NCBI GenBank assembly: GCA_028687545.1 | Contig: JAQTZZ010000021.1 | Coordinates: 1 to 44,140, forward strand | Reading direction: 5' to 3' | DNA length: 44,140 nucleotides | Source of the DNA: Candidatus Wallbacteria bacterium | Lineage (GTDB): Bacteria; Muiribacteriota; JAQTZZ01 | In this document: positions 9,906-42,833 of the stretch, in pieces | How the letters are laid out: each line of letters opens with the position of its first letter | How positions within the stretch are numbered: the stretch's first letter is position 1 | The notes under the pieces: generated by a model | What the model was told of the DNA's origin: nothing | Seen by the model: the letters and a program-made list of their open reading frames with translations, nothing else | The model's database searches: none | Made by a program: the position numbers and the translations under genes

Positions 9906-12900
9906 ATGGGAAAAGATTTCAAGACCATCGATGGCAATCACGCGGCATCCTACATTGCTTACGCGCTGTCAGAAGTTGCGGCCATCTACCCCATCACCCC
10001 GTCCTCCACAATGGGTGAAAACGCCGACGAATGGGCTGCCCACGGGCAGAAAAACATTTTCGGCGAGATTGTGGATGTGATTGAAATGCAGTCCGAAGGC
10101 GGAGCTGCCGGAGCGGTTCACGGCTCGCTCACAGCCGGAGCATTGACCACTACCTTCACCGCCTCCCAGGGTCTGATGCTGATGCTTCCCAATATGCATA
10201 AGATCGCCGGCGAGCTTCTGCCGTGCGTGATCCATGTTTCCGCCCGTTCCCTGGCCTGCCAGGCTCTTTCCATATTCGGCGACCACTCTGATGTAATGTC
10301 GGCACGCAATACGGGTTTTGCGATGCTCGCCTCCAACTCGGTTCAGGAAGCCATGGATATGGCCCTGGTGGCTCACCTTTCCACCATGGAATCCAGGATC
10401 CCGTTCCTGCATTACTTTGATGGCTTCCGCACTTCCAATGAAATCCAGAAAGTCGAAATGATCGATTACGATACCATCAAATCCCTGGTGGATATGAAGT
10501 ATATCGAAGACTTCCGCAATACGGCACTCAGGCCTGACAAACCCAGAATCAAAGTCGGAGCCCAGAATCCGGACGTTTATTTCCAGGGCCGGGAAACGGT
10601 CAACAGTTTTTACGATGCATTGCCCAGCGTTGTGAAAAAGTACCTGAAAAAAGTCGGCGAAAAGACCGGCAGAAAATACAACCTGTTTGATTATTACGGA
10701 GCCAAGGACGCAGAAGACCTGATCGTGATCATGGGCTCAGGCGCTGAAATCGTACAGGAAACCATCGATTATCTGTCTGCACAGGGGCAGAAAGTCGGAG
10801 CAGTGATCGTGAGGCTCTACAGACCCTTCTCGGTCAAGGATTTCACCGACTGCATCCCGGCAACCGCCAAGAGGATCGCTGTGCTGGACAGAACCAAGGA
10901 ACCCGGCTCACTCGGCGAACCGCTGTTCCTGGATGTCACGGCTGCACTGTTTGGCCGCAACCTGAAGATCATTGGCGGCCGTTTCGGACTTTCCTCCAAG
11001 GAATTCACCCCCACCATGGTCAACGCAGTTTATCAGCATCTCAAGAAAGACGGTTTCCACAATTTCACAGTCGGAATCAATGACGATGTGACACATCGCT
11101 CTGTGAAAATCACCGAAGAGATCGATGCTGAACAGAAGAGCGTGCGCCGCTGCAAATTCTGGGGCCTGGGGTCTGACGGCACGGTCGGTGCCAATAAGAA
11201 CTCCATCAAGATCATCGGCGACCACACGGACATGTATGCCCAGGGTTATTTCCAATACGACTCCAAGAAATCGGGCGGCATCACAATTTCCCACCTGCGT
11301 TTCGGAAAAGAAAAGATCCGTTCCTCATATTACGTCACCAGGCCCAATTTCGTGGCCCTGCACAATCCGGCTTACATTGGCCGCTATGACATCCTGGAAG
11401 GGATCCAGGAAAACGGCACATTCCTGCTCAACTCCACCTGGACCGGCGAAGAAGCCTTCAACAACCTGACCCGCGAAATGCAGGAAACGATCATCAACAA
11501 AAAGATCAGATTCTACAACATCGATGCCCGGAAAATTTCAGAGCAGCAGGGACTTGGCGGCAGGATCAACACAGTCATGCAGACTTCCTTTTTCCAGATC
11601 TCCGAAATCCTTCCTGAAAAAGAAGCCATCAGCCTGATCAAGAAAGCGGTAGAAAAGGAATTCAGCAAAAAAGGCAAGGACATCGTGGAAATGAACTGGA
11701 AATGCATTGATGCCGCTGTCAGCGCCCTGGAAAAAGTCAAGATCCCGGCCACTGTCAAAGACATCAAAAAAAGCGCTCCCAACATTAAGCTGCTGCCTGA
11801 CAAGCCCACGGATTTCATGAAAAAAGTGATTGAGCCCGTGATGCGTCTTAAAGGCGATGCTATCCCGGTTTCAGCCATGCCCATCGACGGCGGCGTGGAA
11901 TCCGGCACTGCAGCGATTGAAAAGCGCGGAGTTTCACCTTATGTCCCGCACTGGATTCCGGAAAACTGCATCCAGTGCAACCGCTGCAGCTTTGTCTGCC
12001 CGCACGCTTCCATCCGCACCAAGCTCGTCAAACAGGCAGACCTGGCCAAGGCTCCCAAAACATTTAATGTGGTCGAAACCAAACCTGCCAGCAAGACAGG
12101 CCTCAAATTCCGGCTGCAGGTATACACCGAAGACTGCCAGGGATGCGAGTCCTGCGTAAACGTCTGCCCTGCCCCCAAAAAAGCCATTGCCATGGCTGAC
12201 GTGGAGAAAGAAAGAACAGACGGCCAGCTCGAAAACGCCGAATTTTTCGGAAATCTTCCTGACAACACCCTGGAGGGTACAACCCGCGAAAGCCTGAAGG
12301 GCAGCCAGTTCTGCCTGCCTTACATGGAATTTTCCGGAGCCTGCGGCGGATGCGGCGAAACACCGTACGTGAAGCTCGTGACTCAGTTATATGGTGAACG
12401 GATGATGGTCGCCAATGCCACCGGATGCTCTTCGATCTGGGGCGGAACTTTCCCCACCATGCCCTACACCAAGGATAAGAACGGACATGGTCCCTCCTGG
12501 GCCAATTCACTGTTCGAAGACAATGCCGAATACGGTTTCGGCATGAAGCTCGCAGTCAATTCCAACCGCAAGCAGCTGCGCACCAATCTCGAAACTCTCA
12601 GACAGTACGAGATTCCCGAAACCACCAAAACCCTGATTGCTAAAGCGCTGGACAAGTGGACTGTGATCGACACCGAGTCCCTTGAAAATGCCGCGAAATT
12701 CAAGACCGAAGTGCTGAAGCTGAAAGGCAAGCTCAACGGAGACCAGGCTAAGACACTTGCCAAGGTGCTGGAACTGATGGACTACATCACGGACAAATCA
12801 GTCTGGATCTTCGGCGGCGACGGCTGGGCCTATGACATCGGCTACGGCGGTCTGGACCATGTGCTGGCCATGGGCAGAAACGTGAATGTGCTTGTGATGG

Positions 12901-13505
12901 ACACTGAAGTATATTCCAATACAGGCGGGCAGTCCTCAAAATCCACCAATCTGGGCGCGATCGCCAAGTTCGCGGCTTCCGGAAAACGCACTGTGAAGAA
13001 AAACCTGGGCATGATGGCCATGAGCTATGGCTATGTCTATGTCGCCTCCATAGCCATGGGCGCAAATCCGAATCAGACTGTGAAAGCGCTCGTGGAAGCC
13101 GAATCCTACCCCGGACCCTCGATCGTGATCGCCTATGCCCCCTGCATCGCCCACGGCATCAAGGCCGGACTCGGCAAGAGCCAGGACGAGGAAAAGAGGG
13201 CTGTGGACTCGGGCTACTGGACATTGTACCGCTATAACCCGCTGCTGGCACTGGAAGGCAAGAATCCGTTCCAACTGGACAGCAAGGAACCGACCATGTC
13301 CTATCAGGAATTCCTGGAAGGCGAAGTCAGGTTCTCGGCCCTGAAGAAGACCCACCCGGACGACGCCAAGCGCCTCTTCGCCGAAGCCGAGCTGGCTGCC
13401 AAACAGCGCTATGCCTACTACAAGAAGCTCGCCGAGATGGAGCAGTACAAAGTCGACGCCACGAAGACCGAGACTGCGAAGAAGGAGAAAACTGCTGAGG
13501 CTTAG
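9906..13505 (+). CDS. nifJ: Pyruvate:ferredoxin (flavodoxin) oxidoreductase, single-chain
   Basis: Oxidatively decarboxylates pyruvate to acetyl-CoA with electrons passed to ferredoxin or flavodoxin; cytosolic and oxygen-sensitive. Domain order is that of full-length homodimeric PFOR: alpha domain from YPITPSSTMGE (about 20-240), beta/gamma part (GLGSDGTVGANKNSIKIIG near 418), two ferredoxin-type 4Fe-4S motifs starting at C688 (CIQCNRCSFVCP) and C744 (CQGCESCVNVCP), then the TPP domain with the third cluster ligands in GACGGCGE, and TPP/Mg binding in GGDGWAYDIGYGGLDH and NTGGQSSKST. Length 1199 is normal. Monocistronic: own promoter upstream, terminator downstream. Confidence 0.97.
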   Translation: MGKDFKTIDGNHAASYIAYALSEVAAIYPITPSSTMGENADEWAAHGQKNIFGEIVDVIEMQSEGGAAGAVHGSLTAGALTTTFTASQGLMLMLPNMHKIAGELLPCVIHVSARSLACQALSIFGDHSDVMSARNTGFAMLASNSVQEAMDMALVAHLSTMESRIPFLHYFDGFRTSNEIQKVEMIDYDTIKSLVDMKYIEDFRNTALRPDKPRIKVGAQNPDVYFQGRETVNSFYDALPSVVKKYLKKVGEKTGRKYNLFDYYGAKDAEDLIVIMGSGAEIVQETIDYLSAQGQKVGAVIVRLYRPFSVKDFTDCIPATAKRIAVLDRTKEPGSLGEPLFLDVTAALFGRNLKIIGGRFGLSSKEFTPTMVNAVYQHLKKDGFHNFTVGINDDVTHRSVKITEEIDAEQKSVRRCKFWGLGSDGTVGANKNSIKIIGDHTDMYAQGYFQYDSKKSGGITISHLRFGKEKIRSSYYVTRPNFVALHNPAYIGRYDILEGIQENGTFLLNSTWTGEEAFNNLTREMQETIINKKIRFYNIDARKISEQQGLGGRINTVMQTSFFQISEILPEKEAISLIKKAVEKEFSKKGKDIVEMNWKCIDAAVSALEKVKIPATVKDIKKSAPNIKLLPDKPTDFMKKVIEPVMRLKGDAIPVSAMPIDGGVESGTAAIEKRGVSPYVPHWIPENCIQCNRCSFVCPHASIRTKLVKQADLAKAPKTFNVVETKPASKTGLKFRLQVYTEDCQGCESCVNVCPAPKKAIAMADVEKERTDGQLENAEFFGNLPDNTLEGTTRESLKGSQFCLPYMEFSGACGGCGETPYVKLVTQLYGERMMVANATGCSSIWGGTFPTMPYTKDKNGHGPSWANSLFEDNAEYGFGMKLAVNSNRKQLRTNLETLRQYEIPETTKTLIAKALDKWTVIDTESLENAAKFKTEVLKLKGKLNGDQAKTLAKVLELMDYITDKSVWIFGGDGWAYDIGYGGLDHVLAMGRNVNVLVMDTEVYSNTGGQSSKSTNLGAIAKFAASGKRTVKKNLGMMAMSYGYVYVASIAMGANPNQTVKALVEAESYPGPSIVIAYAPCIAHGIKAGLGKSQDEEKRAVDSGYWTLYRYNPLLALEGKNPFQLDSKEPTMSYQEFLEGEVRFSALKKTHPDDAKRLFAEAELAAKQRYAYYKKLAEMEQYKVDATKTETAKKEKTAEA

Positions 13506-13627: not shown

Positions 13628-13658
13628 AAAAAAGCCCCTGAAACATGGGGCTTTTTTT
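13628..13658 (+). terminator. Intrinsic terminator after PFOR
   Basis: AAAAAAGCCCC and GGGGCTTTTTTT around an eight-base loop. It is the first T-tailed hairpin downstream of PFOR. The stretch from here to 13794 shows no coding region or further clear signal. Confidence 0.9.
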
Positions 13659-13871: not shown

Positions 13872-16800
13872 ATGACTGAAAATACACTACAGAATGATGT
13901 GAAAGCTGAACCAACTGGTTTAGGTCTGAGGCTTTTAGCCTATTTTATCGATCTACCATTGATTTGGCTTATTGTGCTACTGATTCCAGAATGGTGGTTA
14001 AAGTTACTCTTTGGAGAGTCATGGTACCTGTTCGATCTCTTGATGATTTTCTTCTATTTCACTGCAATGGAATGTACCGGAGCTCGTGCTACTCTTGGCA
14101 AACGGCTACTAAGGCTGCAAGTTTTAAGTGCAGACCGTAACTTCCCTGGAATAATTCGGTCTGCGGCCAGGGCTTTCGCACCTTTCGTTTTCAGCTGTTT
14201 CTTGATCTTTCCCAGGAAGCTGCTATTAAAATCATTGGCTTTTCCTCAATTCTGGAGCTGGTTTTTAATGCAAATTTCCCTACTGTTCGTTTTTTGCATG
14301 CTGGTTTCATTTCTGACTGTTTTACTTACAAAACGAAAACAAGCAATTCACGATATTTTTACGCGTACTATGGTATCAAAAACACAGACGGTTTCAGTTA
14401 TTAGAGTTGCAGGCAGTGTTATGCTTTCGATGTTGTTTCTGATTCTATCCTTTCTCTTTCAGATCTATTTACTGTCCGCAGCTCAGAATAGAAGTTCCAG
14501 ACTGGTGTACAGCCTGAGTGTGAACAATCTGCATGGAAAGATAAAGGGATATGAGTTCAGTTCCAAAAACTCTGTCCAATCCCTGGAAGTAGTTTTGAAT
14601 TCCATCAGTGACCTACAGATTGATGAGAATGTAAAGGATGAACTCAATACGGCTTTTCATAATCTGGATCAGGATAGGGTCTGTGGAATTTTGGCTGAAA
14701 TCAAAAGTCTGAACAACTCGGGAAAATTATTCCTTCTGCAGCAGGCTTTGCAACGCAGTTTCGGGAAAGCCGCAGAATTGATTATTGACAGTGGTCTGGA
14801 CGTTACCCATGATACTGACTTTTTGAACAGGATATTGGACGAATTGATGTTCCGTAAACTTCCAAATTGTTTGACCCTGGTTGAAAAACTTATCTCAAAA
14901 GGAATGGACCCCAATCTCAAGCTGCGAATCGGGCAGACAATGCTGGATTGTGCATGTGAAAATGATCAGCCGGAAATTGCGGAGTTGCTTCTTTCGAAAG
15001 GAGCCGATCCTAACTGCAGAGCCCGCAATTTGGATACACCTCTTGCAAAAGCAGCACAAAACGGGAAATCTGCTCTTGCCTCTTTGCTTATCAAACATGG
15101 CGCTGATGTAAATCTGTATGGACATGGTGGTGTTACGCCATTAATAACAGCAATTGAACAAGGGCATGCCGACCTTGCCAAGCTGCTGCTGGATAACGGA
15201 GCTGATCCAGAAAAGCCTAGTAAACTTTCAAAACTCACTCCATTGGAAACGATAAATAAAAAGCTGAAGGACGGATCAATTTCTAAGGACTCTTCAGACT
15301 GGTCATATGTAGCGACTTTTCTTGAAAGTCATCAGAGCCTAGTGAAGTGGGATAGTCCCACACTTGTTTCAGATCTCATTACAGCAATCGAATTAGGTAA
15401 GACTGAAGAAGCCAAGACCAAGATCATGGAGTTAAAGAATCCTGATGAGACTGACTGGTATGGTTATACTCCGCTGCATGTTGCCTGCTGCCATGGTGAT
15501 ATCTCATTGGTCAAGCTTCTGGTAGAAAAAGGGGCTGATGTCGGCAAACCTGATGAAACTGTGTATGCCAAGTGTCCGCCGATCATTTTGGCATTGATGC
15601 CTTCCCTATACTCCAAAAGCCGGGAGAACGAAAACCGTCTGCACAGACCTGATCCTGAAATCGTAAACTACCTGATCGAAAAGGGCGCAGATTTGAATGT
15701 TGCATCCGAAGATGGCTGGACGCCGCTTGCTTGTAGTGTTAATAACCTTACTATGTTATCTCTTTTGCTGGAGAAGGGAGCTGATGTTAATTTCAAAGGA
15801 AGGAATGACAGGTCAATTTCAGCTCTGGAGTGGGCCATCAGTGGTAACCTCATTAGCACTGTAAAATTTCTGGTGAATAAAGGAGCTGCGCTGAAATTCA
15901 GTGGAAGGAACGTCAACGCCCTGTGGATGGCATGCGAAAAACTTACTGACAGTGACCTGATTGATAAAGATGCCAGTAGAGCAATTTTGTATCTCTCGAC
16001 TAAATCCAAGTATCTCAAATTTATTGACAGCGAAGCAATTGCATATTCACTGGCGTTGAATTTTTCTCCATACTCCAGACCAGATATGGAGGAGATGACA
16101 GAGTGTTTTCTTGATACATCAGTAGAAGTAAATGCCATTGATGTAAATGGTACAACTGCATTGATGCTGGCTTCACTGGCAGGCCACTCCAAAATAGTCG
16201 AAAAACTGATCGCTAAAGGAGCTGTTGTATCGGACAGAAACAATTATGGAATGGATGCCTTCACTTTTGCCTTGCTTTCAGGAGACATTGGTACAGTAAA
16301 ACTGCTGTTGAAAAACAACGCTCTGGCGGCATACGGGGACAGCGGCAGGAAAAAAAGACTGTATAGAGTGCTGTACTACGACATGTGCGGCTGGCCTCTG
16401 AGCAGGTCTTCCATCTACATGAAAGTTCAAAACCTCGCGCCATTCCTGAACAAGGTGTATTTTCCTGATAATGGAAATCCATATGCAATGATCAAACTCT
16501 TGCAGGAGTTGAAGCTTTTAAACAGCAATGAACTGCTGGCTCTAGCCGTAGTCAATCAGGAGTATTCATTGATGAAAAAGTTGATCCTGGAAGGCGCGGA
16601 TGTCAATGCCAAAACGCCTGATAAAAAAACTATCCTGGCTTTGGCACAGGACAGAAGCGACTTTGAAGCAGTGGAAATCTTGAAGAAATATGGTGATGTG
16701 CGAAAGGCCAAGACGGATGCTGGAGTTATAAAGAATTCATCAGGCGCTTCAACCAGCAACAGTCGTTCGGAATTCAATTCTCAGAATTATCTCGATCTGA

Positions 16801-17750
16801 TGGGACCGTTCAAAAGAGTCGAGGAAAATGTTTCAGAGAGCATGAAAAGTCAGTCATTAGTCCTTGGATTTCGAAACAGGCTCTGGATTTTCGGGGGCAA
16901 AAATGATGGCGAAGCTGTAAATGAAGTCTGCGTTCTGGAAGACGTTGAAGACAAGAGCAACTGGAAACATGTGTGGATACCACCGGAAAACTTGTTCTCA
17001 CCGCGTTATGGTCATGGCGGAGTTAGCTTCAAAAACGAACTGTTCATAATAGGTGGGGAAGACGGTAAGGGAAATGTTCTCAACGATGTGTGGAACTCTA
17101 AATATGGACAGAAATGGGAGCTCATTCTGGAGCATGCGCCTTTCAGTCCCCGTTACGGATTCGGTCTTTGCGAAATTCATGGTGAGATATTCCTGATCGG
17201 TGGAAGGGACAAGGAGAGGGTTTTCAATGATGTCTGGCGCTCCAGCGATGGGGTGAAATGGGAGCAGGTGAACCAGGAAAAGCCTTTTCCCGAACTGGAA
17301 GCTTTTGGCTGCGTAGCTGCGTTTGGCAAGATCTGGATCATAGGCGGAAAATCCAAGGACGGGCTGACAAACCAGATCTGGACCTCCCAGTTTGGAACGT
17401 CCTGGGAGCTATCAGCAGTTGACCCGCCGTTCTCAAAAAGATACCGCGCTGATCTTAAGTTCATGGCCAACCGGCTCTGGCTAACCTGCGGGGCCGGTGA
17501 AAGTGAAGATGAAGGCGGTCAGATTGTAGCTCTGGGCGATGTCTGGTATACAGCAGACGGAGTTGAATGGAAAAAGATGGGAAATGATGAAGTCACTCCC
17601 AGATTTTTCCATATGACAGGTCACTGTTTCAAAGGGCTGTACATTTTCGGTGGTGAGAACGAAGAACATCAGGCGCATTCTGATGTCTGGAATCTGTTCC
17701 TGGGCAAGTCCCGCTGCCCGATTGGCCTGGATAAACTGGAAGATTTCTAA
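13872..17750 (+). CDS. RDD membrane domain - ankyrin array - Kelch propeller fusion protein
   Basis: A 1292-residue fusion I do not know as a named family. Residues 15-205 are an RDD domain (GLGLRLLAYFID, then GKRLLRLQV and KQAIHDIFTRT) with about five membrane helices, the last near 178-198. Residues 340-945 carry around ten ankyrin repeats in at least three blocks (repeated GADPN, GADVN, GHADLAKLLL, TPLHVACCHGD). Residues 990-1280 hold six Kelch blades (FIIGGED, FLIGGRD, IIGGKSK, each followed by DVW-type turns), enough for a closed propeller. Positive charges after helix 4 imply the repeat part is outside the cytoplasmic membrane. The ribosome site is weak. First gene of a three-gene run. 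Confidence 0.75.
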   Translation: MTENTLQNDVKAEPTGLGLRLLAYFIDLPLIWLIVLLIPEWWLKLLFGESWYLFDLLMIFFYFTAMECTGARATLGKRLLRLQVLSADRNFPGIIRSAARAFAPFVFSCFLIFPRKLLLKSLAFPQFWSWFLMQISLLFVFCMLVSFLTVLLTKRKQAIHDIFTRTMVSKTQTVSVIRVAGSVMLSMLFLILSFLFQIYLLSAAQNRSSRLVYSLSVNNLHGKIKGYEFSSKNSVQSLEVVLNSISDLQIDENVKDELNTAFHNLDQDRVCGILAEIKSLNNSGKLFLLQQALQRSFGKAAELIIDSGLDVTHDTDFLNRILDELMFRKLPNCLTLVEKLISKGMDPNLKLRIGQTMLDCACENDQPEIAELLLSKGADPNCRARNLDTPLAKAAQNGKSALASLLIKHGADVNLYGHGGVTPLITAIEQGHADLAKLLLDNGADPEKPSKLSKLTPLETINKKLKDGSISKDSSDWSYVATFLESHQSLVKWDSPTLVSDLITAIELGKTEEAKTKIMELKNPDETDWYGYTPLHVACCHGDISLVKLLVEKGADVGKPDETVYAKCPPIILALMPSLYSKSRENENRLHRPDPEIVNYLIEKGADLNVASEDGWTPLACSVNNLTMLSLLLEKGADVNFKGRNDRSISALEWAISGNLISTVKFLVNKGAALKFSGRNVNALWMACEKLTDSDLIDKDASRAILYLSTKSKYLKFIDSEAIAYSLALNFSPYSRPDMEEMTECFLDTSVEVNAIDVNGTTALMLASLAGHSKIVEKLIAKGAVVSDRNNYGMDAFTFALLSGDIGTVKLLLKNNALAAYGDSGRKKRLYRVLYYDMCGWPLSRSSIYMKVQNLAPFLNKVYFPDNGNPYAMIKLLQELKLLNSNELLALAVVNQEYSLMKKLILEGADVNAKTPDKKTILALAQDRSDFEAVEILKKYGDVRKAKTDAGVIKNSSGASTSNSRSEFNSQNYLDLMGPFKRVEENVSESMKSQSLVLGFRNRLWIFGGKNDGEAVNEVCVLEDVEDKSNWKHVWIPPENLFSPRYGHGGVSFKNELFIIGGEDGKGNVLNDVWNSKYGQKWELILEHAPFSPRYGFGLCEIHGEIFLIGGRDKERVFNDVWRSSDGVKWEQVNQEKPFPELEAFGCVAAFGKIWIIGGKSKDGLTNQIWTSQFGTSWELSAVDPPFSKRYRADLKFMANRLWLTCGAGESEDEGGQIVALGDVWYTADGVEWKKMGNDEVTPRFFHMTGHCFKGLYIFGGENEEHQAHSDVWNLFLGKSRCPIGLDKLEDF

Positions 17751-17766
17751 TGAAAGTATCTGCAAA

Positions 17767-20700
17767 ATGAAGAAGAAAGTTTTAATCCTAATTATGCTTC
17801 CAATTCTCTTTTTCTTCTCCTTCAAGCTTAAAAGCATTGTTCTTGTATTGCTTAATTTGGGAGAATCGATCTTCCACGGCTGCTCCTCTTATGAAACTGC
17901 AAGTATGTGCTATGAGCTTGAAAAAAAAATTGACCCAAAACATTTTCGCGGATACAAGCTGTGCCTGCTAGGCAATTGCTATTTCAACTTGCATGATTAT
18001 AAAAAAGCCAGCTTAGCATTCCGTGAAGCATTGAATTATCCGGATTATAGGTACTATGGAGTTGACACTGCAAAATGGTTTCTTGGAGAGTCATACTACC
18101 GGATGGGCAGCTATGAATGTGCTGTTGAGGTGTTGTCAAGTGTAGCAAAAGGGAACACACAAGTAGACTTAGCATATTGCATTTATAAAACCGGGCAAAT
18201 TGAAAAAGGGATAGATGGGCTGAAAACTTATGTTCAAAAAACTCCTTACGATCCTCACCCTCATGAACTGCTGATAAAAATTTATCTGGAGACAGGGCAG
18301 CATGGAAAAGCAAAAGAGGAGTATGAGTTTTACAAAGCAAACTATAACAAAGATCAGTACGAACGAAAGGTAATCGAAGAGTACGAAAAATACTTCTCTG
18401 CCACACATGAAATTTTTCAGGCGAAAACCAATGAGGCACTTGCCATACAGCCACCGGCATTGAAAGCAATCGCACAATCATCAGAGAGCATATCAGTAAA
18501 AAACTCGTATTTCCCAGAGGCATACCTGTCTTATCTTGAAATAAATGATCCCATACTCGGGAAAAGCCACGCTTCAATGATTGGATATAACAGAAAGCTC
18601 TGGATACTTGGAGGAATGGAAAACATTGACCAAGGGAATACTGTCAACTTTTTTGAGTTTGATAGTAAGTATAAGATATGGTGGAAAGGAGTTGTCCCGG
18701 ACGAATTCACATTCCCCCGGCGTTATGATCACTGCTCTGTGATTTTTCAAGGCAGGTTAGTGGTTATCGGCGGTTGTAATGAAAACGGGAACCAACTCGA
18801 CGATGTCTGGTCTTCTGCCGATGGATTTCACTGGAATTGTCTGACAAGACACAGCACTTTTGGCCCACGAAGTGATTTTGGTGTATGTGTCCATAATGAC
18901 GCCCTTTTTCTAATCGGCGGAACTGACGGAAAAATCCTGTTCAACGATATCTGGAGATCAACAGACGGGATAAACTGGGTTTCCATCTGCAGTAATGCTC
19001 CTTTCGAGCCATTCCGCTCATTCGGGTGCACCACGAAGGCAGGTAGAATTATAGTAGCTGGTGGTATTAATGATGAAGGAAATCCAATTAGTAAAGTCTG
19101 GAGTTCAGCTGACGGTGTTTCATGGGAACAGGCCTGTTCAGATGCATCGTTCGGCGAAAGATTTTCCCCATATTTAGCTACCTTCAATGATGTAATTTAT
19201 CTGATTGGTGGATATGGTGGGCATTTCGAAAAGGGCACCACTGGCGAACTTTGCAGCGATATTTGGAAAAGTGCTGATAGTATCCGCTGGGAAAAAGTAA
19301 CTGGTGAAGTTGTTGCAGGCAATTCAAGGACATGCGCATCCCTTAACAACAAAATTCAGATTTTAGGCCCAACTCGACATTCCCTAAACTCCAACTTTTG
19401 GTCATTTTCGCCTGACACAGGAGCATTGAATCCTGCCAACTTGGAACTGCCTGGGTTTGCGAGTGCAGATTATAGTGAACAAGATACAGAGTTCGTTTTT
19501 TCCATGCCAACAACATGTGAGGTTCTATTGCATGAAGCCGAGAAGGGCAGCGTGGAAGCAATGACCGACTTAGGAGTTGTTTACTATCAACAGGGGGAGA
19601 ATAACAGGAAGTATTACAAGGACTCTTTCTATTGGTTGAAAAAGGCTGCTGATAAGAACCAGGCAGATGCCCAGTACTATCTGGGCGAATTGTACTATTC
19701 AGGCAGCGGAACTTCACAGAATACTAAAGAAGCATTTGTCTGGTTTCAGAGGAGTGCAGAGCAGGGAAATGTCAGGGCTCAGTGCAAAATGGGTCTATTC
19801 TGTGAGAATGGCTATGTTCAGCCCAGAGACATAAAAAAGGCTGTCGGATGGTATGAAAAAGCAGTTACACAGAATGATCCGGAAGCTCTGTATCTGCTGG
19901 CTACAGTTTACACATACAGTAATGAGGTCATGTATGACAGTAAAAAAGCTATTGAGTTATGCACCAGAGCAGCTGAAAAGGGTTTTCCTAAAGCACAGTC
20001 TGTTCTTGCAAATCTTTTTTACTATTCCAAGACTCCTCAGCATTATGAAAACGCCCTGAAATGGTATCTGAAGCTGGCAAAAGGGGGGAATGCATTTGCA
20101 GAGCACATGTTGAGTGTTATGTACTACTCCGGGCAGGGAGCGCCTGAAAACCCCGAGGCAGCTGTTAAATGGGCTGCCCTGGCTGCCAGGCACGGGAATG
20201 TTATGGCTCAAGGCAATTTAGGAATCATGTATGAGTATGGAACTGGTGTGCCAAAAGATCTGAAGAAAGCAGAGGATCTGTATCGACTGGCTGCAGAACA
20301 AGGAAATGAACTTTCCCAGTTTCACCTGGGCTCGCTATATGCAGATGGAAAGGGCTTAAAACAAGATTTCTGTAAAGCTTACGCCTGGACCAGCCTTGCA
20401 GTTGCACACGGATGCGAGGACGCAGTGAAGGTAAAAAACGAAACTGCTTCTAAGATCACCAGAATGCAGACAACTAGAATCGATAAGCAGGCAGTAGAGT
20501 GGAAACCCAAAGTGAAAGTTGCTGAGTCATCTGTAAATACTAATGACAACTTGAGTTATTTTTCGGATAACGAAAGTGACCATAGGTACTTTACTTTGAA
20601 AGTGAAATTCTTCAGTGAGCTGACCGATACGGATGAGATATCAGGAACTCTTGAGAGTTACAAATGGAAAACTAAAGGTATCTCTGATGACATGATTTCA

Positions 20701-21117
20701 TGGGAAATGCTGACTTTGCCGGATGGCTCTTCCTTTGAAATCGAGTTTGAACGCGACAACAATTGTTGGCAACAGGCTCCAGTGATCAGAGGAAAAATCT
20801 CTGGGAGCAATCAGACTCTTCTTGTAAAAGTTTATCCAAAGAAGTATGTCTTTTCAGCTGTAATCCTACCATTGGAAGCCTATGATGACGGCGTTCGCTG
20901 GAAGTTGAAAAACGAACAGCGCTGGAGAGATAATAGCGAAACAGTTGAAATCTTTGGAGCGAGAGAGCTGACAGTGGAATTTAATTTGGTAAATGACTGG
21001 AAGCTCAGTACTAGTAAAGGCATGGAAAACGTTGATGGAAATAAGGCTCGCAAACTTGACTATTGGCAGTATAGCAATTGTAAGGAACAGGAATTCTATT
21101 TTTATCGTGGAAAATGA
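17767..21117 (+). CDS. Membrane-anchored TPR - Kelch propeller - Sel1 repeat protein
   Basis: The 1116-residue product starts at ATG 17767, 16 bases after the previous stop; the longer frame from 17650 overlaps the previous gene and was not used. MKKK plus a hydrophobic stretch to about residue 32 forms a signal anchor. Residues 45-215 contain TPR-like helices, 261-545 six Kelch blades (VIGGCNENG, FLIGGTDG, VAGGINDEG, YLIGGYGG) matching those of the gene before, and 588-898 about eight Sel1 repeats (KAADKNQADAQYYLGELYY, WKAALAARHGN-type units). The final 200 residues are beta-rich and unrecognised. A periplasmic scaffold is the likely role. Confidence 0.75.
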   Translation: MKKKVLILIMLPILFFFSFKLKSIVLVLLNLGESIFHGCSSYETASMCYELEKKIDPKHFRGYKLCLLGNCYFNLHDYKKASLAFREALNYPDYRYYGVDTAKWFLGESYYRMGSYECAVEVLSSVAKGNTQVDLAYCIYKTGQIEKGIDGLKTYVQKTPYDPHPHELLIKIYLETGQHGKAKEEYEFYKANYNKDQYERKVIEEYEKYFSATHEIFQAKTNEALAIQPPALKAIAQSSESISVKNSYFPEAYLSYLEINDPILGKSHASMIGYNRKLWILGGMENIDQGNTVNFFEFDSKYKIWWKGVVPDEFTFPRRYDHCSVIFQGRLVVIGGCNENGNQLDDVWSSADGFHWNCLTRHSTFGPRSDFGVCVHNDALFLIGGTDGKILFNDIWRSTDGINWVSICSNAPFEPFRSFGCTTKAGRIIVAGGINDEGNPISKVWSSADGVSWEQACSDASFGERFSPYLATFNDVIYLIGGYGGHFEKGTTGELCSDIWKSADSIRWEKVTGEVVAGNSRTCASLNNKIQILGPTRHSLNSNFWSFSPDTGALNPANLELPGFASADYSEQDTEFVFSMPTTCEVLLHEAEKGSVEAMTDLGVVYYQQGENNRKYYKDSFYWLKKAADKNQADAQYYLGELYYSGSGTSQNTKEAFVWFQRSAEQGNVRAQCKMGLFCENGYVQPRDIKKAVGWYEKAVTQNDPEALYLLATVYTYSNEVMYDSKKAIELCTRAAEKGFPKAQSVLANLFYYSKTPQHYENALKWYLKLAKGGNAFAEHMLSVMYYSGQGAPENPEAAVKWAALAARHGNVMAQGNLGIMYEYGTGVPKDLKKAEDLYRLAAEQGNELSQFHLGSLYADGKGLKQDFCKAYAWTSLAVAHGCEDAVKVKNETASKITRMQTTRIDKQAVEWKPKVKVAESSVNTNDNLSYFSDNESDHRYFTLKVKFFSELTDTDEISGTLESYKWKTKGISDDMISWEMLTLPDGSSFEIEFERDNNCWQQAPVIRGKISGSNQTLLVKVYPKKYVFSAVILPLEAYDDGVRWKLKNEQRWRDNSETVEIFGARELTVEFNLVNDWKLSTSKGMENVDGNKARKLDYWQYSNCKEQEFYFYRGK

Positions 21118-21149
21118 GTTGTTTAATACTACATCAGTGGAGCTACTGA

Positions 21150-22466
21150 ATGAAATTGAAAGCTGAATTAGCACCGTCAGTTTTAATTCTCTTCTTTTTG
21201 TGCACCTCTTTCACATTTGCCGCAAATGATAACGCTGGTGACAAGAATCATCAAGATTTGTACCCTGCCGAATTCTGGACAGCGTTGAAAATCGGTGATA
21301 TCGATACACTGAACAAATTATATCCAGAAGAATCTGACATTCCCTCCTTTAGAAAAAAAGGGACGAACTCTTATTCTACCTGGCGGGGTCCACCCATTGA
21401 AACAACCGCTACCTACAATCAGATTGAAGCCGCTGAATGGCTTAAGCAAAGAGGGGCTATTGTCACAGGCAAAACCTGGTACAATGCTATAAAGAGTTCC
21501 AACACTGATTTTGTAAAATGGCTGATCTCTCAAAATGAAGAACTCAATATTTTGTGTCTTGTCGAATATCGCTATGGATACATTACTCCACTGAGCATTG
21601 CTGCCCTGTATAACAGGTCAGAGATTACCTCACTTCTCCTAGATGCTGGAGCATCAGTTTCATTAAGAGGACAGCAGAACTCACCCGGTCAGTTTTTGGA
21701 GTCTTCTTTGTCATTTGCCTCCAGTCCAGAGGTAGCGATACTTCTTATTAACCACGGAGCTGATGTGAATGAAATTGCTGAGGGTGGATTTTCACAACAG
21801 GAGTATCCGAAAGAAGCTTCCGACTTATTTAGCGAGCTCAAGGACGACAGATACAGCACTTACCGGGGTGGGACACCGCTAAACTGGGCTTGTCGCAGTG
21901 GCAGGCTGGATGTGGTCCAGACTCTAATCAACTATGGAGCTGTAGTCAATCAGAAAAATGGCTATGGTGTGACTCCGCTGATGGCAGCAAGCTTCTGCGG
22001 GCAGGAGAAAATTGTGGAATATCTTATTGAAAAAGGAGCTCTGATTAATGAGCGTGATTACATCCATTGCAGCACTGCTATGATGCAGGCAGCATATCAA
22101 GGACATCTGGGAATTGTAAAAATACTTTTAGCTAAAGGAGCTGATCCTGCTCTTCTTTACTATGCTCAAAGGAAAGCAGACCGCCCGCCGGGATCTTCAA
22201 AATACCTCGATGCATACAGCAAACCTACTGATGAAGTTCATGTTTACAATGCGCTTGACCTAGCCAAAATCCAGGGATACCAGGAAGTTGTTTCAGTATT
22301 GTCTCAATGTTCCCGGGCCCATTTCAGGCCGACTGAGGATGTGAACCTAAGCAACGATAATTCGACAATTGAGCACGGAAGATTAACTAGGATTTACCTT
22401 TCCATTCCACTGATACTTCTTTTGCTCCTCATGTTGGCAAAAGTAAGGATGCGGAGAAAGGGTTGA
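21150..22466 (+). CDS. Exported ankyrin-repeat protein with C-terminal membrane anchor
   Basis: The 438-residue protein has a signal peptide (hydrophobic to about residue 24, cleavage near TFA), five or six ankyrin repeats (TPLSIAALYNRSEITSLLLDAGA, TPLNWACRSGRLDVVQTLI, TPLMAASFCGQEKIVEYLI, a later AYQGHLGIVKILLAKGADP) and a C-terminal helix IYLSIPLILLLLLML followed by KVRMRRKG, whose charge fixes the tail in the cytoplasm. Ankyrins would therefore lie outside the membrane. TGGAG precedes ATG 21150 at a good distance; it follows the second gene by 32 bases and is probably its cotranscript. Confidence 0.78.
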   Translation: MKLKAELAPSVLILFFLCTSFTFAANDNAGDKNHQDLYPAEFWTALKIGDIDTLNKLYPEESDIPSFRKKGTNSYSTWRGPPIETTATYNQIEAAEWLKQRGAIVTGKTWYNAIKSSNTDFVKWLISQNEELNILCLVEYRYGYITPLSIAALYNRSEITSLLLDAGASVSLRGQQNSPGQFLESSLSFASSPEVAILLINHGADVNEIAEGGFSQQEYPKEASDLFSELKDDRYSTYRGGTPLNWACRSGRLDVVQTLINYGAVVNQKNGYGVTPLMAASFCGQEKIVEYLIEKGALINERDYIHCSTAMMQAAYQGHLGIVKILLAKGADPALLYYAQRKADRPPGSSKYLDAYSKPTDEVHVYNALDLAKIQGYQEVVSVLSQCSRAHFRPTEDVNLSNDNSTIEHGRLTRIYLSIPLILLLLLMLAKVRMRRKG

Positions 22467-22593: not shown

Positions 22594-22622
22594 TTGCGAT
22601 TTGCACAGAGAATGTGTATTAT
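22594..22622 (+). promoter_or_regulatory. Predicted promoter for the first AAA_14 gene, placed for a leaderless mRNA
   Basis: TTGCGA, 17-base spacer, TATTAT. The expected start, seven bases after the -10, is at or next to ATG 22629, and no Shine-Dalgarno precedes that ATG. Confidence 0.5.
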
Positions 22623-22628
22623 TACAAT

Positions 22629-23825
22629 ATGATTACTCGAAACATTACTGAAGAGCTGATCAGATCGGCAAAAGAGTATCCGGTTGTAACAATCCTTGGA
22701 CCTCGGCAATCCGGTAAAACGACTCTGGCTCAAATGACTTTTCCTGATCAACCGTATTTCTCCCTGGAAGACCCGGACGTAAGAAGCGCGGCCGAAGCAG
22801 ATCCCCGGGGATTTCTCGGTCAGATGAAGACAGGCGGGATACTTGATGAGATACAGCGTTTCCCCTTATTACTCTCATATATCCAGGGCATTGTCGATAA
22901 AGCAGGGAAAAAAGTTCATTTCATACTGACCGGCAGCCATCAGCCATTGCTTCATGAAGCGATCAGCCAGTCATTGGCTGGAAGGACAGCTGTTCTGACA
23001 TTGTGGCCTTTTTCCATTTCTGAACTCCGTAATTACAAACCTGACTGGTCTCCATCCGAATTGATAGTCAAGGGCTGTTTTCCAAGGCTTCACCAGGATG
23101 ACCTTGACCCGAGAAGGTTTTACAACAGTTACCTGCAGACGTACATCGAACGTGATGTGCGCGCATTGATAAATCTGCGCGACCTCTCTCAGTTCCAGAA
23201 ATTTCTTACTCTGCTTGCCGGCCGCGTGGGACAGATCGTCAACTTTTCTTCTCTCTCAAACGATACCGGAGTTTCGCATACGACCATCAGAAACTGGCTC
23301 AGCGTCCTGAAAGCCTCAAACGTAATTTACGAACTTCCCCCGTTTTTTGAAAATATCAGTAAGAGGGTAATCAAATCTCCCAAGATTTATTTCTCTGATA
23401 CAGGTCTGGTTGCATTTCTATTGGGCATTCACACAAAAGAACAGGCTGCCCATGATCCATTGCGCGGCAATCTGTATGAGAACCTTATAATCGGAGACAT
23501 TATAAAAGGGGCTTTTAACAAGGGGATAAAACCGGAACTCTATTTTTTCCGCGACTCGCACGGGAATGAAGTCGACCTTCTGATCAGGGAAAATGGCAGG
23601 TTGATTCCTGTTGAAATCAAGTCGGCAGAAACGTTTTCCATTGATTTTGTGAAGAGTGTGAAGCGTCTTGAGGAGTTTGAACTCAAGCGTGTGGCTAAAG
23701 GAGTAATCCTTTACAATGGAAATCAGCAGTTCAATATCCAGGGTATCAGAATTTTCAACCCTATTCTGATTAGTAACATTTGGGAAACCTTGACTCTACC
23801 TATAGAGCAAAACGAAGTTGAGTAA
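22629..23825 (+). CDS. AAA_14 ATPase with C-terminal DUF4143
   Basis: A 398-residue protein of the AAA_14/DUF4143 family, whose biological role is not settled. Walker A GPRQSGKTT lies at 24-32 (K30), Walker B GGILDEIQ at 69-76 (D73, E74), and sensor-like LTGSHQPLL follows. Residues 205-245 form a winged helix (SSLSNDTGVSHTTIRNWLS). The C-terminus has EVDLLI followed by PVEIKSA, the D-(E-x-K) pattern of a PD-(D/E)xK nuclease-like fold. ATG 22629 is chosen over GTG 22614 because relatives begin MI-R. A second copy of the family is at 41610. Confidence 0.88.
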   Translation: MITRNITEELIRSAKEYPVVTILGPRQSGKTTLAQMTFPDQPYFSLEDPDVRSAAEADPRGFLGQMKTGGILDEIQRFPLLLSYIQGIVDKAGKKVHFILTGSHQPLLHEAISQSLAGRTAVLTLWPFSISELRNYKPDWSPSELIVKGCFPRLHQDDLDPRRFYNSYLQTYIERDVRALINLRDLSQFQKFLTLLAGRVGQIVNFSSLSNDTGVSHTTIRNWLSVLKASNVIYELPPFFENISKRVIKSPKIYFSDTGLVAFLLGIHTKEQAAHDPLRGNLYENLIIGDIIKGAFNKGIKPELYFFRDSHGNEVDLLIRENGRLIPVEIKSAETFSIDFVKSVKRLEEFELKRVAKGVILYNGNQQFNIQGIRIFNPILISNIWETLTLPIEQNEVE

Positions 23826-23904: not shown

Positions 23905-26900
23905 TTGAATTTCAGTAAATTCAAAGGTGATTTTATTATTAAAAAGAAATATGCAATTCTTGCTCTGATACTGTCGACGATCTGGGGAATTTGTTTTTTC
24001 TGCAGCCCTAAAGTTGAGCAGGAAAACCCTCTTCCAGTTACCAGCCAGGAATCCGCCAACTTATCAATTGACCATACTTTCTGGATAAAAGGCCAAAAAG
24101 AAAATCACACCTTACAGGATTTTAATCTGACATCAGTTTTTTACAACAAATCACTTGATGCACTGCTTGTCAGGAGCATCCAACCTGCTGATCAGATTAT
24201 CCCTCTGCTTGCAGCTTCAGGGAGCAAGATGGAAAAGGATTTCCCGGTCAAGGCAGCCGGGAGAGCTGTTGCCGGAAATGCCTGGATCTATCAATTGTGC
24301 AATCTTTCAACCTGTGAAGCGAAGAATGAGGTCATCGTCGCAGTGCTGGATACCGGTTACACCGGACAGAATGAAGTCATCAACGGATATAATTACCTGG
24401 AAATGTCCAGCGACTTTTCAGATCATAACGGGCATGGCAGTGAAGTCGCCAACCTGGCGTTATCGTTTACCAGTCAAGCCAAACTGATGCCTCTGAAAGT
24501 ACTGAATGACGATGGCATAGGCTCAATGTCTGCAGTGATCAACGCAATTGTGCATGCTGCAGACCATGGAGCAAAATTGATCAACATCTCTCTTGGCGGC
24601 TATCATGACAGCGATCTGCTGGAAGCTGCGGTCAATTATGCCAGATCAAAAAACTGCGCAGTGATTGCCGCCTGCGGCAATGATTCAAGCAGCAGGCCTT
24701 TCTATCCTGCAGCCTGCAGCGGAGCTTTGGCAATTTCAGCGGTCAATCCTGATCTCAGCAGAGCCGGTTATTCCAATTTCGGTGAATACATCGATTTCTG
24801 TGCTCCAGGCTCTTACATCATGACAGTCGATCACAACCGGCAGATCATAAGAGCCACAGGCACTTCCTACGCAGCTCCGGTATTTGCAGGAATTCTGGCT
24901 GCCGGGCTTGAACAGGGGAAGATAGCAGGCATTACTGAAATTGAGCTGGCAGGATTGTGCCTGGATCTTGGCGAAGCCGGCAAAGACAGCTATTTCGGAC
25001 ATGGACTGCTCAAACTGCCTGCTGAGGATAAAAGCTCTGCTGTTGAAGACATTCAAGCATCTGGTGAAGTGAACAACAATTCCGGCAATCAACCTTCGAT
25101 TCTTCCGCCGCCAGCAAGTAATTATTTAACTGTCAGCAGATCATACGAGCTTACAGTACCACAACCAACAGTGGCACAAATCAACGGCCAGGAGATAGTT
25201 GAAATTGCGGAATTCGGCAGCCTGCTGGAAGTTAACCATCCGCAACTCCCTTATCGGGTGTTTTTTTATGAAGTGCCTGCAGCAGCCGGCTCCATCGAAG
25301 TAACTGTAGAATCCGAGAGTTCTTATGTATTTGAGAGAATTGAGAATATCAGGATTACTCCTAAACCGATATCTGGCGATCAACAAGCAAGCACACCGGT
25401 CATGGACCCTTTACTTCCTCCAGTTTATCCGGAAACTCCTTATAAATTCATAGGAATCCAGAATATCGGATGGCATAAAATAGCTGCCGTAGCCCTGATG
25501 CCTGTTCAGTATGAAAAAGAAACAAAAAATCTGATTTTCCACCCCGGTTTCAGGATCAAGATCAGTTACTCAGATGCAGCTGCTGCTATGCAGTCCAGTT
25601 CCAGACCCTTTAATCAGAATCTTGAAGATACTGCTTCAGAACTGATCCAGAATTATGGAGAAATAAAATTTGATTACCAGAAGCAAGGCATCTCAGGCTA
25701 TAAGTATCTGATCATCACAACCAATGCCCTGAAATCATACCTGCAGCCCCTGGCAGACTGGAAAACCAAGAAAGGCCAGAAAGCGATTATTAAAACCATC
25801 GAAGAAATCGGCGCTGGTACTCCGGATGAGATTCGAACCTGCATTTCAGACTATTACAATGGAGGCAATGGCATCAGCTGGGTACTCCTGGCAGGCGATT
25901 ACAACGTAGTACCTATGAAAACAATCGTCGCAGCCTGTGACAGCGACACAGTACCCACAGACTATTTCTATGCCAAGGTGACAGGCACCTGGGATGCCAA
26001 TGGCAATAACAGCCTGGGCTGGGTGCCTGAGGTATATGTCGGACGGCTGTCTGCTTCCTCCACTTCAGACATGCAGACCTTAGTCAACAATATCTTGAAC
26101 TATGAAAAATCCCCGCCAGCAGGTACCTGGACCTCCAGGGTAGTTCTGGCAGCAGCGTTTTCCAACCATAATCAGGATACTACAGGCAGCAATACCCAGG
26201 GCATGCCTAAGACCGACGAAGGCACCATGATGGAGCGGATGATCGCAGACGGATTTTTCAGCGGGCTGACTTATGTCAGGCTTTATCAGCATGGCGACGA
26301 TGCAGGTCTTGTACCCAGCACATTGACCCACGAAATAGATTTAACTGAAACCAACTTTGTCAGTGCAGTCTCCACAGGGGAAGTCTTCATAGGCTGGGCA
26401 GGTCATGGAGGCAATAATTGTGTGGTCTATCGGAAATGGGTCAGCGACACAGATGGCGACAATCTGGAAGAAGCCTCAGGCAATGGCGACATCTATGAAT
26501 CTGAGGATCACTTTTTTTACACCACTACTGACAATCCCTCAAATGGCAGCAAAAAACCGCTGGTTTATGCTGACTCCTGTAATACTGGGGCCTTTGACTG
26601 GTCCAGCGGGGACTGCCTTGGCGAAGCTGTGATCAAAAAGCTGGGGATCGGCTTTGTGGGAGCCAGCCGGATTTCCTATTATTCTCCCGGCTGGTCTCAG
26701 CCGTCCAATGGTTATAACCAGACCCATGAATACTATTTTACCAGGGAATTTCTCAACCAGGGAAAATATCAGCCAGGCAAAATGCTTTATGATTCAAAGG
26801 TATACTATTCAACCAACATTACAGTTGATAATTATTCAAAGAAAAACTTCCACGTTTACAATCTGCTCGGGGATCCTGAGATCCCGATCTGGACAGCAGC

Positions 26901-41609: not shown

Positions 41610-42833
41610 ATGTATATTACTCGAACTCTTGAAAAATATATTATCCAAGCCGGGGCACAATTCCCTGTGCTGCTGGTCACCGGAGCCCGCCAGGTGGGCA
41701 AGACGACTTTTCTCAGGCACTTGTGCAAAAAAGATCGTGCTTACATCACACTTGACGACCCAATGGCTCTCACACTGGCTAAAGAAGATCCTGCCCTTTT
41801 TTTTCAGAGATTTCGTCCGCCACTGCTGATCGATGAAATTCAATATGCCCCGGAGCTTCTTCCCCATATCAAGATGATGGTCGATCAGGACCATCGATCA
41901 GGAGCGTTCTGGCTAACCGGCTCACAGCAGTTTCATCTGATGAAAGGTGTTTCGGAATCATTGGCTGGGCGGGTCGGTGTAGTCCAGCTGCTCGGGCTTT
42001 CCAGAAGAGAGCTGATCGGGCTGGCCGGCATGGGATTGCCTTTTTTGCCGACACCTGCTAGGATCGCGGAACGAATGGCTACAGCCGTTAAACTGCCTCT
42101 CAAGGATCTTTACAGCTTGATCTGGAAAGGATCTTTCCCGGTTGCGGCACTGGATCAGCATATGAATCGCGATTTTTTTTACGCATCTTATGTCCAGACT
42201 TATCTTCAGCGGGATGTGCGCGATCTGGCCAGAGTAGGAGACGAGATGGCATTCCTGCGTTTTCTCCGGACCGCTGCCGCCCGCACCGGACAGTTGCTGA
42301 ACCTTTCGGAACTGGCCAAAGATGCTGATATCTCGCCGAATACGGCCAAGAGCTGGCTTTCCATCCTGATCTCATCAGGCCTCGTGTATCTGCTCGAACC
42401 ATGGCACAGCAATTTAACCAAGCGTCTGGTGAAGACGCCGAAACTTTTTTTCCTGGATACAGGATTGTGTGCCTATCTTACCGAATGGTCGAGCCCTGAA
42501 AACCTTGAGGCAGGTGCAATGTCCGGCGCGATCCTGGAAACATGGATAATAGGAGAACTGCTTAAGAGTTACTGGAACAATGGCATCAGAGCGCCGTTTT
42601 ATTATTATCGGAACAAGGACAAGGTTGAGATAGATCTTCTGATCATGCAGGACGGAACAGTCTATCCGCTGGAGTTCAAGAAGACAGCTTCCCCTTCTAA
42701 AGACGATGTCAGGCATTTTTCAGCTCTAACCAAACTGAATCTGCCTGTCGGGCAGGGTGGAATCATCTGTCTAACCGAGCAGAAACTGCCCCTGATAAAG
42801 ACCGTCGACGTCATACCCGTCGGCCTGTTGTAG
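41610..42833 (+). CDS. AAA_14 ATPase with C-terminal DUF4143 (second copy)
   Basis: The 407-residue protein has Walker A GARQVGKTT (25-33, K31), Walker B LLIDEIQ (D75, E76), LTGSQQFHLM, a winged helix (SELAKDADISPNTAKSWLS), and the nuclease-like EIDLLI ... PLEFKKT at the C-terminus. It is a diverged paralogue of the 22629 product, clearly alignable but not recently duplicated. Unlike that gene it has a leader and a strong ribosome site. It sits directly behind the tRNA terminator, a frequent insertion site. The function of the family is unsettled. Confidence 0.9.
   Translation: MYITRTLEKYIIQAGAQFPVLLVTGARQVGKTTFLRHLCKKDRAYITLDDPMALTLAKEDPALFFQRFRPPLLIDEIQYAPELLPHIKMMVDQDHRSGAFWLTGSQQFHLMKGVSESLAGRVGVVQLLGLSRRELIGLAGMGLPFLPTPARIAERMATAVKLPLKDLYSLIWKGSFPVAALDQHMNRDFFYASYVQTYLQRDVRDLARVGDEMAFLRFLRTAAARTGQLLNLSELAKDADISPNTAKSWLSILISSGLVYLLEPWHSNLTKRLVKTPKLFFLDTGLCAYLTEWSSPENLEAGAMSGAILETWIIGELLKSYWNNGIRAPFYYYRNKDKVEIDLLIMQDGTVYPLEFKKTASPSKDDVRHFSALTKLNLPVGQGGIICLTEQKLPLIKTVDVIPVGLL

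Follow-up and report, generated by a model that had tools for sequence, protein, structure and literature searches.

A three-gene cassette encoding membrane-anchored ankyrin, Kelch, TPR and Sel1 repeat proteins, probably facing outward, in a Candidatus Wallbacteria genome

The window analyzed here, 44,140 nt in length, is contig C21 of a 4.54 Mb Candidatus Wallbacteria genome (108 contigs, 97% complete). It contains three tightly spaced genes on the plus strand at 13872–17750, 17767–21117 and 21150–22466, hereafter genes 1, 2 and 3. The longest open reading frame of gene 2 begins with a GTG at 17650, within gene 1; translation more plausibly starts at the ATG at 17767, 16 nt past the gene 1 stop. 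A gap of 32 nt separates gene 2 from gene 3. Upstream, 366 nt lie between gene 1 and the preceding gene (9906–13505), which would be ended by a terminator-like hairpin at 13636–13650 (+) identified as a consensus match only. Downstream, 147 nt lie between gene 3 and a gene encoding an AAA_14-DUF4143 ATPase.

The first-pass annotation had assigned ankyrin, Kelch, TPR and Sel1 modules to three consecutive genes, and the open reading frames and Pfam matches bear this out. Gene 1 encodes 1292 aa, in which an RDD membrane anchor is followed by an ankyrin array and a six-blade Kelch stretch. Its RDD domain (13914–14363) scored 49.9 bits against the Pfam cut-off of 24.1 for PF06271 and has the three residues named for that family, namely R20 and the first Asp, D27, at the first helix, and, late in the domain, the second Asp, D161, within the residues IHD. 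An extra transmembrane segment (aa 179–203, 14406–14480), predicted from hydrophobicity and from a low-confidence helix in the model, lies between the RDD domain and the arrays. The ankyrin array spans aa 336–912 (14877–16607; Ank_2, 1.8e-59) and the Kelch stretch aa 1003–1274 (16878–17693; Kelch, 5e-25), both of them detected by Pfam and HMM searches. No solved structure was found to match the RDD part of gene 1.

Gene 2 encodes 1116 aa with an N-terminal anchor, TPR repeats (TPR_14, 5.7e-7), a Kelch domain at 18532–19317 whose sixth blade extends beyond these limits (Kelch_1, 1.2e-19), a Sel1 array at aa 591–916 (19537–20514; Sel1, 1.2e-48) and a C-terminal beta module of about 190 aa (20539–21114) that is recognized by no Pfam model. 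Gene 3 encodes 438 aa, with a signal peptide, an ankyrin array at aa 146–333 (21585–22148; Ank, 2.8e-33; also detected by HMM), and a C-terminal anchor with a basic tail. Genes 1 and 3 each have several ankyrin repeats above the cut-off. Six Kelch motifs were counted in gene 1 by HMM and six in gene 2 by eye, so that a six-blade propeller is predicted for each from sequence; the single-sequence structure models, with pLDDT values of 51 and 38, were too poor to use for assessing propeller closure or otherwise. Domain scans recognized no catalytic site in the modules of the cassette.

Hydrophobic segments were found in all three products. Gene 2 has one, at aa 1–32, which is predicted to be a signal-anchor in which MKKK precedes a hydrophobic stretch (17767–17874). 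Gene 3 has two, at aa 3–26 and at aa 410–435 (22377–22454), the latter being the putative C-terminal transmembrane segment. Gene 1 has four, at aa 16–48, 101–119, 126–155 and 173–205, and a weaker one near 51–69. These segments, together with the RDD domain, support the earlier proposal that all three products are membrane-anchored, and the gene 2 and gene 3 products are very probably exported.

The side on which the gene 1 arrays lie hinges on two stretches, at about 101–119 and 131–153. If both or neither of them cross the membrane, the arrays would be outside, and if only one crosses, the extra helix would bring the chain back inside. The K+R difference was 6 for the five-helix model in which both cross, 12 for the model in which neither crosses, and 10 for the four-helix, array-inside model in which only the second crosses, and therefore charge by itself leaves the side unsettled. 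An inside location, in which gene 1 would connect an ankyrin-Kelch scaffold in the cytoplasm with partners on the outside, is favored by the difference of 10 versus 6 over the five-helix model, as well as by one characterized RDD protein for which the available text reports three predicted segments (PMC5996927), since three RDD segments plus one extra helix would place the arrays inside. However, the neither-crosses model, which is likewise array-out, scores 12, and this genome generally places its ankyrin and Kelch arrays behind predicted export signals, as described below. Furthermore, other RDD proteins of the phylum have domains of cytoplasmic type ahead of RDD and, after RDD and one more helix, domains that are normally extracytoplasmic. 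These are a protein with a pilin-like domain (L104) and four with PsbP-like domains (L099–L101 and L103, all five assigned by eye from translations). A further protein, in another genome of the phylum (L102, 3301–7431), combines a serine/threonine protein kinase, an RDD-like domain, a helix and ankyrins, although its RDD match is marginal (22.9 bits versus the cut-off of 24.1). Based on these analogues and on the exported pool that holds its Kelch domain, we consider it probable that the gene 1 arrays lie outside the cytoplasmic membrane, and the array-inside arrangement unlikely. The first-pass annotation had placed all the arrays outside by signal peptides and positive-inside reasoning; this stands as very probable for genes 2 and 3 and as probable for gene 1, but positive-inside counting (6 versus 10) does not settle the latter.

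Other RDD fusions were noticed by eye in the same searches. The pilin-like protein (L104, 1721–3658) has, in one open reading frame, a HEAT-like and zinc-ribbon-like start, followed by the RDD domain and by a helix and domain that resemble type IV pilin. A class III cyclase-like domain is fused to RDD at three loci (L107, L108 and L109), two of them in the genome under study and one in a genome of the same family.

We then compared the cassette with the other repeat proteins of the genome. Repeat ORFs were gathered from stretches around repeat matches and classified with small HMMs derived from the repeats of the window, and an 11-mer of strong hydrophobicity within the first 60 residues of 5'-complete ORFs was used as the export proxy. 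The survey yielded 64 repeat ORFs of at least 150 aa, including 37 ankyrin ORFs, 35 of which were 5'-complete. A hydrophobic start was present in 32 of these 35 (34 at a softer threshold), a count that includes gene 3, gene 1 being classed apart. By comparison, it was present in 150 of 313 other ORFs from the same stretches, a baseline that also counts genuine membrane proteins as well as some ORFs that are spurious. The proportions were 11/15 for Kelch ORFs and 3/4 for Sel1 ORFs. By this proxy, outward ankyrins are the rule in this genome, and outward ankyrin and Kelch arrays are a genome-wide habit rather than a special feature of the cassette. Of the 39 genomes of the phylum, 36 have ankyrin matches; however, only 12 of 25 5'-complete ankyrin ORFs in a best-match sample from the phylum, one locus of which (L263) belongs to the genome under study, had a hydrophobic start. 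Ankyrin export is thus no general rule across the phylum by this count, which indicates that the export bias is a trait of this genome and not of the phylum.

The modules of the cassette also share a history. The Kelch domains of genes 1 and 2 are reciprocal best matches within the genome, and formed an exclusive pair with a support of 100/98 in a maximum-likelihood tree of the 44 propellers of this genome. Both branches are long (2.08 and 1.43), and the letter composition of gene 1 is unusual. The pair was retained, with a support of 0.996, when propellers of other genomes of the phylum were added (FastTree, 53 rows). The exclusive pairing among 44 propellers therefore indicates that the two genes share a history, and the shared modules noted in the first-pass annotation thus include two Kelch domains that are mutual nearest relatives. 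The beta module of gene 2 matches repeated stretches in giant Kelch ORFs of this genome (best E 1.2e-10), many of which carry N-terminal signal segments. It was found at 30 places in this genome, including that in gene 2 itself (e.g., L219, L227 and L230), and at 8 places in the sole other genome of the same family, and was absent from the 37 other phylum genomes searched.

The cassette might alternatively consist of three independent exported repeat proteins brought together by duplication and rearrangement in a repeat-rich genome, with no joint complex. With 66 repeat genes dealt over 3,500–4,500 genes (the survey count being 64), the probability of a same-strand run of three by chance is about 0.002–0.005. 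The genome has a further run on contig C31, where three exported ankyrin genes stand in tandem (L202, 852–7816; gaps 8 and 11), and unlike repeat genes are neighbors no more often than expected by chance: one such pair was found, or three with the cassette added by hand, against a random mean of 2.7. The neighbor statistics thus cut both ways, as a run of three is improbable while unlike neighbors are not enriched. The abundance of repeat ORFs, the run on C31 and the lack of enrichment favor independent genes, as does the failure, described below, to find a counterpart. The operon-like spacing, the ancestry that the two Kelch domains share only with each other and the low probability of the run argue against them, and we regard independence as possible but the less likely explanation.

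A search for the cassette elsewhere revealed no second copy. The first 330 aa of gene 1 had no full-length relative in 380 other genomes, with 6 weak partial matches, and a pattern scan of named genome contigs with this part and with the whole gene likewise revealed none. Among the matches listed in the 38 other phylum genomes, gene 2 was represented by Sel1 or Kelch pieces only and gene 3 by ankyrin stretches only, and no counterpart of the cassette appeared. In G001, which belongs to the same family, and in G006, no contig joined ankyrin, Kelch and Sel1 matches; both assemblies are fragmented. The three genes were therefore not found together in the genomes searched, among which there was only one other genome of the same family; the first-pass annotation had named such an outcome as one that would speak against its own proposal. 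One contig of G001 (L284) encodes an exported protein with ankyrins and the beta module, a membrane protein, and then a protein in which a zinc-ribbon-like start and three helices accompany an ankyrin array. Judged by its predicted modules, this locus is a loose analogue that differs from the cassette. Phage and plasmid searches gave partial matches only, all of them covering less than 80% of the query; the top plasmid match, from Bradyrhizobium, covered 52% of gene 2 and has no Kelch domain, and no viral contig matched gene 2.

Discussion of bacterial ankyrin repeats mostly concerns cytoplasmic or injected proteins. The cassette does match ankyrin models of T4SS effectors and of MzaA, which would fit effectors injected or secreted to act on a host, or a system against phages. 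However, all NCBIfam matches fall far under the curated cut-offs (e.g., 115.5 versus 600), the PADLOC matches are confined to the repeats, and the products would retain membrane anchors, which makes such a role highly improbable. At the level of individual families, the equivalog cut-off of the Dot/Icm Ank effectors was not reached, and for MZA and other PADLOC systems gene 1 and gene 3 matched in their repeats only, not at full length, and gene 2 not at all.

Export of ankyrin proteins in bulk is already known in principle, as proteomics of Brachyspira found dozens of them in exoproteome and surfaceome fractions, and those assigned by LipoP have signal peptides, lipoprotein sites or transmembrane segments (PMC4955376). 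The available text of that study mentions no RDD, Kelch or Sel1 fusion and no three-gene unit. In Pseudomonas and Campylobacter catalase depends on ankyrin proteins, and Leptospira has an ank-katE operon (PMC7567364), which resembles the cassette in that an ankyrin protein shares an operon with a presumed extracytoplasmic partner. However, the cassette adds Kelch and Sel1 modules, and no catalase was found in the 17 further window proteins scanned.

AlgK, ExoR and MotX are periplasmic Sel1/TPR scaffolds. Gene 2 resembles them in its Sel1 solenoid, predicted to lie outside the cytoplasmic membrane, and their NCBIfam models match this array. The scores (AlgK, 71.6 versus a cut-off of 700; ExoR, 32.4 versus 450; MotX, 53.1 versus 330) are all under the curated cut-offs, and gene 2 differs from them in adding TPR repeats, a Kelch domain and the beta module and in having no such pathway genes alongside. 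The studied RDD member is reported to be a cation/proton antiporter (PMC5996927), whereas in gene 1 the RDD domain is followed by one more helix and then by about 1,090 aa made up of repeats and linkers. Full-text literature searches revealed no paper joining the RDD family with ankyrin and, as judged by title, no comparable bacterial periplasmic ankyrin/Sel1/Kelch unit.

We propose, with a probability of about 0.55, that the cassette is a lineage-specific operon for membrane-tethered extracytoplasmic scaffolds with all arrays outside. The three genes would form one transcription unit for binding scaffolds tethered to the cytoplasmic membrane: gene 1 by the RDD domain plus the extra helix, gene 2 by its N-terminal signal anchor, and gene 3 by its C-terminal helix once the signal peptide is cleaved. 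The modules would have been drawn from the exported repeat-protein pool expanded in this genome, and the two Kelch propellers would derive from one ancestor and have been kept within this gene pair. Judging by the types of module present, the ankyrin, Kelch, TPR and Sel1 surfaces may serve as docking sites that hold further exported proteins of the lineage, such as repeat or surface proteins, at the membrane; the three products may also form a complex. The spacing of 16 and 32 nt with the flanking gaps, the export bias, the Kelch pair, the beta module, the RDD-helix analogues and the G001 locus support this proposal, whereas the lack of a second copy in the genomes searched, the K+R differences, the three-segment RDD protein and the lack of enrichment of unlike neighbors count against it.

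The cassette is an unusual combination of repeat modules that the lineage already exports in large numbers. The genome appears to keep nearly all its ankyrin proteins behind export signals, to combine them with Kelch, Sel1 and TPR modules and with a beta module specific to the lineage, and to carry some of its repeat proteins on multi-helix anchors. If the three products do form a joint complex, this would be a scaffold in the envelope whose modules are all best known from scaffolding inside eukaryotic cells. The arrangement of RDD, helix and array, which also occurs behind a protein kinase, suggests a possible way in which binding on the outside could be relayed to the membrane. A more speculative and improbable extension is that gene 1 is an RDD ion-exchange unit set by the ligand of its outward ankyrin-Kelch arm, while the products of genes 2 and 3 act as co-receptors that also face outward. 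It would then be a repeat-gated membrane transporter or sensor of an undescribed kind, and the kinase protein L102 a signaling version of the same plan.

Other genes of the window were also noted. The AAA_14-DUF4143 ATPase gene downstream of the cassette (22614–23825, +), which strongly matches the PADLOC candidate PDC-S01, has a paralogue at 41610–42833 (+), about 18 kb apart. The region 23905–35310 (+) encodes a giant protein of 3801 aa that contains a Peptidase_C25 domain of the gingipain type; inspection by eye also picked out an S8-like Asp/His/Ser set close to its N-terminus. Two copies of a GWNLIS...GYWVYM-like module lie at the C-terminus of the protein, and the same module follows the signal peptide in several Kelch ORFs of the genome.
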